From positions 186,001-250,000 of the forward strand of contig NZ_JACIEE010000002.1 of the NCBI RefSeq assembly GCF_014196765.1: 64,000 nucleotides of DNA. Reading direction: 5' to 3'. Of the stretch, positions 10,383-28,283 are shown in pieces. Numbering within the stretch: position 1 is the first letter of the stretch; the number at the start of each line of letters is the position of its first letter. The notes beneath the pieces were generated by a model that had not been told where the DNA came from, searched no databases, and saw nothing but the letters and a program-made list of their open reading frames with translations. The DNA is from Mycoplana azooxidifex (GTDB lineage: Bacteria; Pseudomonadota; Alphaproteobacteria; Rhizobiales; Rhizobiaceae). The translations under genes were made by a program, and so were the position numbers.

Positions 10383-10407
10383 AACGGATTTCATGGATGA
10401 ATGTTCC
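10383..10407 (-). promoter_or_regulatory. EcfG/RpoE2-type general stress promoter of prkA-yeaH-spoVR
   Basis: Read on the minus strand, GGAAC (10407-10403) and CGTT (10386-10383) are separated by exactly 16 bases, matching the general stress promoter consensus of alphaproteobacteria. The expected transcript start near 10373 leaves a leader of about 60 bases before prkA. A TATAAT hexamer at 10376-10371 has no good -35 partner. The -35 overlaps the 3' end of the small frame at 10391-10606. Confidence 0.8.
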
Positions 10408-10606
10408 TTTCACATAATTGGCATTCCGGGTGATTTGCGTGATCGAGGGTCGCAGGGACCGAGGCATCCGTCTCGTCGGAGGCGAAGCATTTCTGGCAGC
10501 CAGGGTTCTTGAGCAGAGACTCAGTGCGAACGGCCATGAAGAGCATTGAACACGTCTTTTCGGACCTTGCCAACCGCGCCCGGAAGATTGATTCGACCTG
10601 CGACAT
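10391..10606 (-). CDS. Possible small zinc-binding protein with two CxxC pairs
   Basis: 71 residues starting MSQVESIFRARLARSEKTC. The C-terminal half has two CxxC knuckles, CQKC at about 37-40 and CQLC at about 63-66, with 22 residues between them and a His-containing stretch (LDHANHPE). This is a plausible zinc-ribbon arrangement. No strong Shine-Dalgarno is visible before ATG 10606 and I see no EcfG-type promoter for it. It ends 75 bases before prkA on the same strand, and its last codons overlap the prkA promoter. I do not recognise a family. The spacing of the cysteines and the protein-like composition are the only support. Confidence 0.45.
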   Translation of the reverse strand: MSQVESIFRARLARSEKTCSMLFMAVRTESLLKNPGCQKCFASDETDASVPATLDHANHPECQLCERNIHP

Positions 10607-10769
10607 TTATGCGCACCCCGGCCGTACCGGTATCCGGGAACGATCCTGAAAATGCCCGCCATCTCTCCGCCGGTCGGCGCGCCAGCGCCCTGACGACGGT
10701 TTCGCCCGGCTCCGCCTCTGTGAAAAAATTCGCCACCGGTCGATATGCCGTCGAGGGTCGAAAACGGGC

Positions 10770-10794
10770 GGAACCATTGCCGCGAGATGTCGTT
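10770..10794 (+). promoter_or_regulatory. EcfG/RpoE2-type general stress promoter of the 86-aa gene
   Basis: GGAAC at 10770-10774 and CGTT at 10791-10794 with a 16-base spacer. The start codon of the 86-aa gene is 28 bases downstream, leaving room for a short leader that carries AAGGAG. Confidence 0.8.
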
Positions 10795-10822
10795 GACCTA
10801 GCGACGCAAGGAGACAAGTCAG

Positions 10823-11083
10823 ATGCAGGAAAATTCGAACCAGAAAGAGGTTGAGCGGCGGTCGCTGGCGGTGGAGAGCGCGCTGATCCTTCTCATCGGC
10901 GACCTCGCCACGCGAGGCATCGTTTCGGCCGAAGAGGCGGAAAACGTGCTCGCGACGATCGCCGGCAGCTCCGCCCTCTCGTCCGCCCACGCCTCGGGAG
11001 CCCGCACGCTCGTGAAGCAGTTGCGACGGTTGCGCCGTAACGACGGACTTTCCGCGCCCGGAGCGTCCTCGTTCAAGGCTTGA
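10823..11083 (+). CDS. Small hypothetical protein, probable general stress gene
   Basis: 86 residues, MQENSNQKEVERRSLAVESA at the start. ATG 10823 follows a strong AAGGAG by nine bases. The protein is predicted mostly helical: a helix rich in Ala/Ile/Leu (SALILLIGDLATRGIVS), a second helix (AEEAENVLATIAG) and a basic third (LVKQLRRLRRND). It has no signal peptide, no cysteines and no recognised domain. A GGAAC-N16-CGTT promoter directly upstream puts it in the general stress regulon by inference. It is followed by a bidirectional terminator at 11130-11157. Function unknown. Confidence 0.72.
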   Translation: MQENSNQKEVERRSLAVESALILLIGDLATRGIVSAEEAENVLATIAGSSALSSAHASGARTLVKQLRRLRRNDGLSAPGASSFKA

Positions 11084-11129
11084 GCAAATGCCGCTCGCTC
11101 GTACCCCCGACGGATACCGGAAAGCAGAA

Positions 11130-11157
11130 GCACGGCCGGGGTTGAACCCGGCCGTGC
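11130..11157. terminator. Bidirectional terminator hairpin
   Basis: Perfect 11-bp inverted repeat: GCACGGCCGGG at 11130-11140 and its complement at 11147-11157, with a 6-base loop. It lies between the converging 86-aa and 126-aa genes. No long T run follows on either side. Confidence 0.7.
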
Positions 11158-11179
11158 CTCACGCAGGGCTTGCCATCCT

Positions 11180-11560
11180 TCAACGTTTCTTGCCGGATTT
11201 GGCTGGCCCGGCGCGGCCGGCGATCGTGCTGGAGGTCACCGAGACCGGATCGCTGGCAGGAAAGGTTGCCTCCAGTCCCTCGTCCAGTTCCTCTTCCATC
11301 GTCTCCGTGTCGCCGGAGCCCCGGGCGCTTCGGACGGGTCGCGCCCGTGCGGCCTCGCCGTCGGCCTGCCGAACTTCGCTTGAGGCGATCCGGCGCAGCA
11401 GCGCCAGGGCCCGGTCGACCGCATTGGTCCTGTTGAGGCCGCCCTCGTCGTCGGGCGCAAGCTGGGCGCTGACGACCTCTCCGGTATTTGTGACGAACTC
11501 GACGGTATAGCCGCGCTTGCCGCCCATTTCCGCATGAACCAGTGCTTCGATGATCTGCAT
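11180..11560 (-). CDS. Hypothetical protein with C-terminal FPASDP motif, probable stress gene
   Basis: 126 residues beginning [20 protein letters not shown]. The N-terminal 65 residues look like a small alpha/beta domain ([17 protein letters not shown], then a helix [18 protein letters not shown]). A low-complexity acidic region ends in [15 protein letters not shown] and a basic tail. The (E)[10 protein letters not shown] segment recurs at the ends of many small rhizobial proteins and may be a shared tag or interaction motif; that is recollection plus inference. A GGAAC-N17-CGTT promoter lies 31-56 bases upstream, and GGGAG precedes the start. Function unknown. Confidence 0.75.
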
Positions 11561-11590
11561 GTTCCTGTTCTCCCGTGATCGTCAGGATGG

Positions 11591-26572: not shown

Positions 26573-26655
26573 CTTGCGCAAAGCCCGCCCGCCCGCGACA
26601 TTGCACCGACATAAATACGAGGGACAGGTCTGCCTCGGGACGACAGGAGTGCGGG

Positions 26656-27180
26656 ATGGTTCGGGAAAACGAGATCCGGGAAAACGAGGTCGCGGTAACG
26701 CCGCCGGAACCGGTGGATGCGGGGCTGACCTTCATAGGCCGCATCCGCACGCCCTGGAATTCGCGGCTGCTGTGCCCGCGCCAGGGCCGCCACGACGGGC
26801 CGCAGTGCCGGATCGAGATCTTCGCGCCATGGGTGCCCGCACTTGCTGGCGTGGAGGCGTTCGAGCGGCTGGAAGTGCTCTACTGGCTGGACCGGTCGCG
26901 GCGCGACCTCGTGCTGCAGAGCCCGGCTAGCAGCGGCAAGGTGCACGGGACCTTCTCGCTGCGCTCTCCGGTTCGCCCCAATCCGATCGGCACTTCGATC
27001 GTGGTCCTCGATGGCATCGAGGGCAATGTCTTGCTGGTGCGCGGCCTCGACTGCCTCGACGGCACGCCGCTGCTCGACCTGAAGCCCGACCGCTCGCTGT
27101 TCAAGCCGATCGCACCGCCGCAGCCGGGTGATTTCGAGACGGGCGAGCCGAAAGGCGTAAAATACTGCCAGAAGGCGTGA
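26656..27180 (+). CDS. TrmO-family tRNA N6-threonylcarbamoyladenosine methyltransferase
   Basis: 174 residues. The family (TsaA-like/UPF0066, E. coli YaeB/TrmO) uses S-adenosylmethionine to methylate t6A37 in tRNA-Thr. Family marks are the start of the beta-barrel ([11 protein letters not shown]), the central [18 protein letters not shown] with the diagnostic RPNPIG, and [16 protein letters not shown]. It is shorter than E. coli TrmO (about 235) and lacks that protein's C-terminal domain, as many alphaproteobacterial members do. It is divergent from modA and converges on the SDR gene, ten bases away. Confidence 0.85.
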
Positions 27181-27190
27181 GGCCCGTTCC

Positions 27191-27937
27191 TCACATCTGC
27201 GCCGACATGCCGCCGTCGACCGTCAGCGTGATGCCGTTGACGAAACTTGCAGCCGGGGAGGCGAGGAAGAGGGCAGCCGGCGCCAGTTCCTCCGGCCGGC
27301 CCCAGCGCTTGAGCGGGATGCGGACGTCGACATAGGCCTGCACCCGCGCGTCTTCCGCCATGGCCCGGTTCGGATCGGTGACGAACCAGCCGGGCGCGAT
27401 CGCGTTCACCGTCAGATTGTCCGAGCCGAATTCGACGGCGAGCGAGCGGGTCAGGGCCTCCAGCCCTCCCTTCGAGGCGGTGTAGGCCGCGTCCGGTGCG
27501 CGCGCGATCCTTGCTGCGATCGAAGTCACGAAGATCAGCCGCCCCGCCGCCGATTGCCGCAACAGCGGAAGCGCCGCCCGCGCCAGCCGATAGGCTGCCG
27601 TCAGGTTCACGTCGAGCAGGGCTGCGAATGCCGCCCCGTCCAGTGCCTCGGTCGGGCGGCGGTCGCGCAGGCTCGCCGCGTGCACGACCACGTCCAGGCC
27701 GCCCAGCATGTCGGCGGCCTGCCGCACGATGCCTTCCGCGTCGGCGGAGAGGTCGCCGGAGAGCGCCGAGACCGCGCAGCCCTCGTTGCGCAATTGCGCC
27801 GCATGGGTCTCGAGCAGGTCCCGGTCGCGACCGTTGAGGGCGACCGCGGCTCCCTCTCGCGCAAAGGCGCGGGCGATCTCCAGCCCCAGCCCGCGGGTTG
27901 CGCCCGTCACGAGAATACGTCGTTTGCCGTCGATCAT
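27191..27937 (-). CDS. SDR-family oxidoreductase
   Basis: 248 residues from ATG 27937; the longer open frame upstream has no protein-like sequence. Dinucleotide-binding TGATRGLG at 11-18 and catalytic Ser139, Tyr152 and Lys156 (YTASK) are all present. The usual NNAG structural motif is HAAS at 86-89, a less common variant. The C-terminal FVNGITLTVDGGMSAQM is a standard classical-SDR ending. It is an NAD(P)-dependent alcohol or ketone oxidoreductase with unknown substrate. It stands alone between trmO and a repeat. Confidence 0.9.
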   Translation of the reverse strand: MIDGKRRILVTGATRGLGLEIARAFAREGAAVALNGRDRDLLETHAAQLRNEGCAVSALSGDLSADAEGIVRQAADMLGGLDVVVHAASLRDRRPTEALDGAAFAALLDVNLTAAYRLARAALPLLRQSAAGRLIFVTSIAARIARAPDAAYTASKGGLEALTRSLAVEFGSDNLTVNAIAPGWFVTDPNRAMAEDARVQAYVDVRIPLKRWGRPEELAPAALFLASPAASFVNGITLTVDGGMSAQM

Positions 27938-28010
27938 CTGAACCCTCGCATGTTGGCCGGTCTGTCGGTCGGTTGGCGCCCCCGCGCCCCCCGCATGCTG
28001 CCTTCCTAGA

Positions 28011-28035
28011 GCATGTCGCCCGAAAATGGGAACGA
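28011..28035. repeat. Partial or variant copy of the AGAGCATGTCGC repeat family
   Basis: The sequence AGAGCATGTCGCCCGAAAA (from 28008) shares its first 12 bases with copy B and continues as the GAAAATGGGAAC variant of the same family, but the right arm of the palindrome is missing. It is a truncated member. Confidence 0.55.
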
Positions 28036-28078
28036 AGAAAGATGCGCGTCCGAGCAGTCGCGTGTCACGCAAGAGCGA

Positions 28079-28234
28079 CTACAACTCGTGCGCCATCTTT
28101 GAAGGGTTAGACAGGAGTTCTCCCTCGGGCGGCGGCGTATCGCTGCCGGAACCCGTCGTCTGCTGCAATACGACGATGCTCAGGATCGAGACGACCATGA
28201 CCAGGAGAACGATCAGCAATATCCGTGCCGGCAT
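28079..28234 (-). CDS. 51-residue single-span membrane protein, probable general stress gene
   Basis: Starts at ATG 28234 and stops at TAG 28079. Residues 4-23 (RILLIVLLVMVVSILSIVVL) are one strongly hydrophobic helix. A short hydrophilic tail (QQTTGSGSDTPPPEGELL, then SNPSKMAHEL) follows. The N-terminus resembles an uncleaved anchor. AAGGTAGGG precedes the start at good spacing. A GGAAC-N16-CGTT promoter lies 25-49 bases upstream, which strongly supports a real, stress-controlled gene. No family recognised. It could be a small regulator or stabiliser of a membrane complex, but that is speculation. Confidence 0.7.
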   Translation of the reverse strand: MPARILLIVLLVMVVSILSIVVLQQTTGSGSDTPPPEGELLSNPSKMAHEL

Positions 28235-28258
28235 GAACCCTACCTTTCGTGGGCCGGA

Positions 28259-28283
28259 AACGGGGCACGCAGCTTTAGGTTCC
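28259..28283 (-). promoter_or_regulatory. EcfG/RpoE2-type general stress promoter of the 51-aa gene
   Basis: Minus strand: GGAAC at 28283-28279 and CGTT at 28262-28259 with a 16-base spacer. The start codon is 25 bases further, so the leader is short and holds the ribosome-binding site. Confidence 0.8.

Follow-up and report, generated by a model that had tools for sequence, protein, structure and literature searches.

Four conserved, probable EcfG promoter elements ahead of prkA and three small genes in Mycoplana azooxidifex, and a recurring C-terminal peptide in one of the encoded proteins

A 64,000-nucleotide stretch of the genome of the soil bacterium Mycoplana azooxidifex (contig NZ_JACIEE010000002.1, positions 186,001 to 250,000; hereafter, the window) contains four elements of the form GGAAC-N16/17-CGTT, located ahead of prkA and of three small genes that encode proteins of 86, 126, and 51 amino acids. 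Based on their sequence, placement, and conservation, these elements very probably serve as promoters recognized by EcfG (ECF15), the general-stress sigma factor of Alphaproteobacteria, and we predict that the four genes extend the known EcfG regulon. All four have the features of EcfG promoters, namely a -35 GGAAC, a spacer of 16 or 17 bases, a -10 CGTT, placement ahead of a gene, and conservation; a 17-base spacer is accepted for promoters of this type. The elements lie at the positions claimed by an initial annotation of the window and are the sole exact matches within it:

10383-10407, minus strand: EcfG-type promoter of prkA, GGAAC-N16-CGTT; exact in six of seven genus genomes, with TGTT in the seventh.
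10770-10794, plus strand: EcfG-type promoter of the 86-amino-acid gene, GGAAC-N16-CGTT; exact in five of five genus orthologs.
11591-11616, minus strand: EcfG-type promoter of the 126-amino-acid gene, GGAAC-N17-CGTT; exact in five of five genus orthologs and in genome G022.
28259-28283, minus strand: EcfG-type promoter of the 51-amino-acid gene, GGAAC-N16-CGTT; exact in six of seven genus orthologs and, outside the genus, in three of four remote homologs.

As originally described, all four elements are intergenic and face a start codon; the distances that we measured span 24–64 bases, compared with the 25–68 first given. The motif lies 28 base pairs (bp) before the start of the 86-amino-acid gene, 30 bp before that of the 126-amino-acid gene, 24 bp before that of the 51-amino-acid gene, and 64 bp before that of prkA if translation begins at MQRGESDVF (10318), which is the most likely start. 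A longer prkA open reading frame would start (10372) only 10 bp from the -10 element; this start is unlikely because the open frame in three of the seven genus orthologs is only 652 amino acids long and closes just upstream of MQRG.

Conservation was assessed in seven genomes of the genus Mycoplana (G000–G006). The exact motif precedes 22 of the 24 orthologs of the four genes, and the two exceptions, both in G003, are one base off (GGAAC..TGTT ahead of prkA and GGAAC..CGTG ahead of the 51-amino-acid gene). Across the five sites of the 86-amino-acid gene, nine of nine core bases and seven of 16 spacer bases are invariant; the corresponding values are nine of nine and four of 16 for five of the seven sites of the 51-amino-acid gene, and eight of nine and seven of 16 for the seven prkA sites.

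The assignment of these elements to EcfG is supported by published motifs and by the regulatory genes of this organism. An excerpt of PMC3892343 gives the Rhizobium etli EcfG1 motif as GGAAC-N16-CGTT and describes EcfG as exclusive to Alphaproteobacteria, and the promoter examples in an excerpt of PMC6180224 indicate that Sinorhizobium meliloti RpoE2 promoters resemble the four window elements and that an N17 spacer occurs among them. The genome carries two NepR genes (L056 on contig C10 and L057 on contig C11), each beside a PhyR gene whose product has the PhyR sigma-like and receiver domains in Pfam, and a gene for a 186-amino-acid sigma factor directly follows the C11 copy of nepR. This protein contains sigma-70 regions 2 and 4, and both these domains and the place of its gene after nepR suggest that it is of the EcfG type. 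The general-stress interpretation of the initial annotation thus finds support in the published R. etli motif, the phyR/nepR-ecfG locus, the conservation within the genus, and the stress genes that lie behind other copies of the motif. The system therefore resembles the EcfG/RpoE2 (ECF15) regulon of R. etli and S. meliloti in its -35 GGAAC, spacer, -10 CGTT, and encoded regulators; unlike that regulon, its predicted targets include prkA and an 86-amino-acid gene seen only in this genus.

In the alphaproteobacterial general stress response, stress leads a kinase to phosphorylate PhyR, which then sequesters the anti-sigma factor NepR and so releases EcfG. Freed EcfG would then direct RNA polymerase to GGAAC-N16/17-CGTT, a step that we read in this genome from genes and sites alone, and its targets in the window would be the prkA-DUF444-SpoVR operon and the genes for the 86-, 126-, and 51-amino-acid proteins. 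Well-supported targets, including prkA, would in this way be added to a core alphaproteobacterial stress regulon, most members of which have no assigned function.

Among the 115 exact matches in the whole genome, we classified 97 sites, in 93 stretches outside the window. Thirty-one lie at most 150 bp before a same-strand gene, compared with 12 of 97 when the strand is flipped and 309 of 4650 random positions (6.6%); 38 lie within genes and 28 elsewhere, and a looser 250-bp rule yields 39 promoter-placed sites. The gene caller used here skipped the 51-amino-acid gene, so that the site of this gene was rated as "other." A Pfam search of ten proteins, comprising the two PhyR proteins and eight encoded behind promoter-placed sites, identified PhyR (twice), CsbD, DUF1328, Ku (twice), DUF2934, PRC-barrel, and Host_attach, with one protein lacking a family. 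The C10 copy of nepR (L056) has CsbD and DUF1328 genes in its vicinity, both preceded by EcfG sites. An exact EcfG-type site also precedes each of the two Ku genes (L150 and L151, at G000:C1:469675 and 474165), which would place end joining under general-stress control.

Several results weigh against this interpretation of the four elements. In shuffled versions of the window, GGAAC-N16/17-CGTT occurs on average 1.00 times (standard deviation 1.01), in agreement with the initial estimate of about one chance match per window, and at least four matches occur in two of 100 shuffles; the Poisson probability of at least four matches per 64-kb window is 0.015–0.038. Genome-wide, the 115 matches compare with 85 for the reversed control pattern, and many single matches are therefore chance; moreover, 38 of the 97 classified sites are intragenic, and another 28 lack a gene start within 150 bp. 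In a family sample outside the genus, the exact motif precedes only four of 13 prkA genes, and R. etli prkA is reported in an excerpt of PMC3188799 to be strongly RpoN1-dependent. A count of four is thus mildly unusual and weak evidence alone, and because of this the statistical argument of the initial annotation rests on placement. Its statement that the four matches are not chance holds by virtue of placement and conservation; the bare count adds little. Mere chance occurrence of a nine-base pattern, which the shuffles, the reversed control, and the intragenic sites would favor, is difficult to reconcile with four elements that all lie between genes, each pointing at a nearby gene, and that persist in 22 of the 24 genus orthologs while their spacers drift; we reject it on the basis of this conservation and regard it as extremely improbable.

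We also consider it unlikely that a different sigma factor recognizes the elements, either an ECF26-type paralog or, mainly for prkA, RpoN or sigma-70, with EcfG in a minor role. The RpoN1 dependence of R. etli prkA would fit such a scheme, the text excerpted from PMC6180224 indicates that the S. meliloti RpoE6 (ECF26) regulon overlaps that of RpoE2, and a TGTATAnTG element just downstream of the prkA -10, kept in all seven genus genomes, may be a second promoter. However, the same excerpt of PMC6180224 gives the ECF26 consensus as GGAATA/GT, not GGAAC/CGTT. The 10 prkA genes examined lack a -24/-12-like site (TGG[CT][AG][CT]N4-6[CT]TGC) in their 400 bp of upstream sequence, and the EcfG core is kept. 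An Rfam scan of the window produced no match at gathering scores.

Returning to EcfG as the probable regulator, one of its predicted targets is a presumed operon with the following composition:

8366-10318, minus strand: prkA, encoding a PrkA-family AAA+/serine kinase protein (PF08298, 5e-183; PF06798, 2e-73; NF011999 above cut-off), start MQRGESDVF.
6753-8066, minus strand: DUF444 (YeaH-like) gene (PF04285, 2e-162), presumed second in the prkA operon.
5197-6741, minus strand: SpoVR-like gene, an open reading frame (PF04293, 3e-168), presumed third in the prkA operon.

The first protein contains both the PrkA AAA and the C-terminal domains that define its family, and the three genes are adjacent in that order on one strand. 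The three gene families and their order are shared with the PrkA-YeaH-SpoVR operon that includes Escherichia coli yeaG and R. etli prkA, and this operon is under stress or stationary-phase control in other bacteria. The regulators differ: prkA is controlled by RpoN1 and (p)ppGpp in R. etli and by RpoS in E. coli, whereas here we infer an EcfG-type promoter. EcfG control of prkA would then be a lineage-level difference, and this suggests that control of prkA has apparently switched between sigma factors among relatives. The TGTATAnTG element mentioned above corresponds to TTTTCCTGTATAnTG (10370-10384, minus strand).

The initial annotation described the four elements as marking a local group of stress genes. 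This description suits the three sites that lie within about 1.2 kb of each other; the 51-amino-acid gene is 17 kb away and is better viewed as a separate target. The number of exact sites near prkA varies among the genus genomes: G004 has four, G000, G001, and G005 have three each, G002 and G006 have two each, and G003 has one (plus the variant prkA site). From these sequences, we consider the prkA upstream region in the genus to be a small stress-gene neighborhood, and three of the four window sites belong to a cluster around prkA that the genus has conserved. Whether this proximity has functional meaning is a separate matter, and we lean somewhat toward the possibility that it has none, the promoters being real and the genes being independent EcfG targets that are neighbors by accident. 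Each gene has its own promoter, the 51-amino-acid gene is remote, the S. meliloti relative of the 126-amino-acid gene adjoins other genes, and the gene content of the prkA locus varies among sister species. In opposition to accident, four of the seven genus genomes (G000, G001, G004, and G005) have at least three exact sites no farther than about 2 kb from prkA, a clustering that exceeds that suggested by some tens of sites in 5.9 Mb. The sister species appear to differ in the small genes around prkA, each with its own EcfG site. An extra gene with its own exact EcfG site is located between prkA and the 126-amino-acid gene in G001 (L309), where it encodes an HD-domain protein (PF13328), and in G004 (L312), where the copy is apparently shortened.

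The three small genes and the part of one of them that encodes a C-terminal tail are as follows:

10823-11083, plus strand: 86-amino-acid protein, predicted to form three helices (AlphaFold2 without an alignment, predicted local distance difference test score 78); supported by codon pattern.
11180-11560, minus strand: 126-amino-acid protein with a predicted β-β-β-α domain (residues 1–60), a low-confidence linker, and a conserved, acidic C-terminal FPASDP tail.
11219-11308, minus strand: tail-motif coding stretch of the 126-amino-acid gene (residues 85–114; FPASDP is residues 100–105, 11246-11263).
28079-28234, minus strand: 51-amino-acid protein, present in seven of seven genus genomes and in four further genomes of other genera; supported by codon pattern.

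An excess of changes at third codon positions is clear for the 86- and 126-amino-acid open reading frames and weaker for the 51-amino-acid frame, in which third-position changes outnumber first-position changes in five of six comparisons and tie in one. This excess supports the reading of the small frames as genes, most weakly for the 51-amino-acid gene, which was missed by a simple gene caller and rests on conservation. Its product is presumably a membrane protein, given a single hydrophobic stretch in its sequence. The 86-amino-acid gene was detected in five of 41 relatives, all within the genus, and a Foldseek search with the model of its product, folded without an alignment, returned no match at E ≤ 0.001. 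The initial annotation regarded the three small proteins as having no known function. This remains accurate to the extent that Pfam and NCBIfam assign none; the 126-amino-acid protein nevertheless falls into a large family in which a C-terminal motif recurs.

AlphaFold2 predicts the N-terminal domain of the 126-amino-acid protein (residues 1–60) with confidence and the remainder with low confidence; the alignment used for this structure included 43 of the 47 loci L058–L104, with L098, L101, L103, and L104 left out as partial or disrupted frames. The protein itself matched no Pfam or NCBIfam family, and 44 members of its family gave only scattered weak matches to these libraries. A Foldseek search with the model found no match at E ≤ 0.001, and the fold search for the N-terminal domain revealed weak likeness to the small domains 6q2z, 3bid, and 2k7i, which we take to be DUF1508-like domains; none of the 44 family members, nor the window protein, matched DUF1508 by sequence. 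Relatives in named genomes were evaluated as the best 80 of 230, and these loci are not independent. For 48 of these 80, the 250 bp upstream of the match contain the exact motif (N15–18) in the same orientation; all remaining same-strand bins of 250 bp add up to 28, and the corresponding bin on the opposite strand holds 12. The 48 comprise 31 of the 48 relatives with the N-terminal domain and 17 of the 32 others. Several Sinorhizobium/Ensifer paralogs lack the motif. The relative in S. meliloti 1021 (on pSymB) has the exact motif upstream; the genome record is unannotated at this locus, the gene could not be matched to published regulon tables, and its promoter string was not found in the literature searched. 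We posit that the 126-amino-acid protein is made under stress, that its N-terminal domain may act as a small binding module, and that its tail may dock it to a common partner.

The system is of a known kind, and the tail is its most novel part. In 17 diverse tails, FPASDP and two preceding leucines are invariant, and FPASDP was seen in 77 of the best 80 named relatives, with a median of 16 residues to the stop codon (range 7–111). A tail profile identified 16 of 142 genomes of the class at E ≤ 0.01 and 43 of 249 genomes of the phylum at E ≤ 0.001, 13 of these outside Alphaproteobacteria. The tail-bearing proteins include OsmC, DUF4345, NDUS4, DUF1244, DUF2934, and LUD-domain proteins and a formate/nitrite transporter (its domain was scanned without the tail, which lies in the same frame); YflT (weak) and zinc-dehydrogenase (weak and below cut-off) were also matched. 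The string "FPASDP" was not found in the literature searched, a keyword search turned up nothing pertinent on a motif of this kind, and no model for this recurring peptide was found in the two libraries searched, Pfam and NCBIfam. The tail is apparently undescribed and shared by many unrelated bacterial proteins. A raw DNA pattern for FPASDP gave 37 listed matches in 190 genomes of the class and eight for the reversed control; among 29 loci inspected, only L293 encoded the tail, the others being unrelated frames or other proteins, and the pattern had zero matches in the M. azooxidifex genome despite its four tail genes. This test is uninformative, and the claim is carried by the profile searches.

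Genomes with the tail tend to encode NepR. NepR scored above cut-off in 11 of 16 tail genomes and seven of 126 others (Fisher 1.4e-8), and, in 56 genomes of at least 3 Mb, in nine of 12 and seven of 44, respectively (2e-4; eight of 11 and seven of 44 with the M. azooxidifex genome excluded, 6e-4), statistics in which relatedness is corrected no further than by the even draw of genomes. We tentatively propose, as a possibility that we hold to be rather doubtful, that the motif (approximately LDEALEE[ST]FPASDP[PV], usually about 16 residues before the stop codon) serves Proteobacteria as a transplantable peptide tag, undescribed so far and, in Alphaproteobacteria, linked to the general stress response. 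Such a tag would dock unrelated proteins of stress response and metabolism (OsmC, NDUS4, LUD, the formate transporter, DUF1244, DUF4345, and DUF2934) to one receptor such as a chaperone, a protease adaptor, or a condensate scaffold. If the peptide is indeed a docking tag, its receptor would link a large number of orphan stress proteins in a single step. We are cautious about this proposal and its link to EcfG on several counts: the tail occurs outside the class, where EcfG is unexpected; an EcfG-like site accompanies only one of the four FPASDP-tail genes in M. azooxidifex; among 23 further tail loci examined in the class (L246 left out), five have a loose upstream site, two of these exact, which speaks against a strict EcfG link; and the docking step is one that we infer. 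The idea that the tail is read by, or directed at, PrkA was prompted by the location of the 126-amino-acid gene less than 2 kb from prkA in five of the seven genus genomes; it is disfavored, given that G009, G014, G015, G019, G020, G021, G022, and G023 have hits that cover the tail but no prkA at E ≤ 1e-30. The [ST]FPASDP tail was observed on unrelated proteobacterial proteins at L238, L242, L252, L256, L258, L327, L329, L338, and L339, and a 105-amino-acid protein (L235, G073:C6:131197-131412) contains two copies of it.

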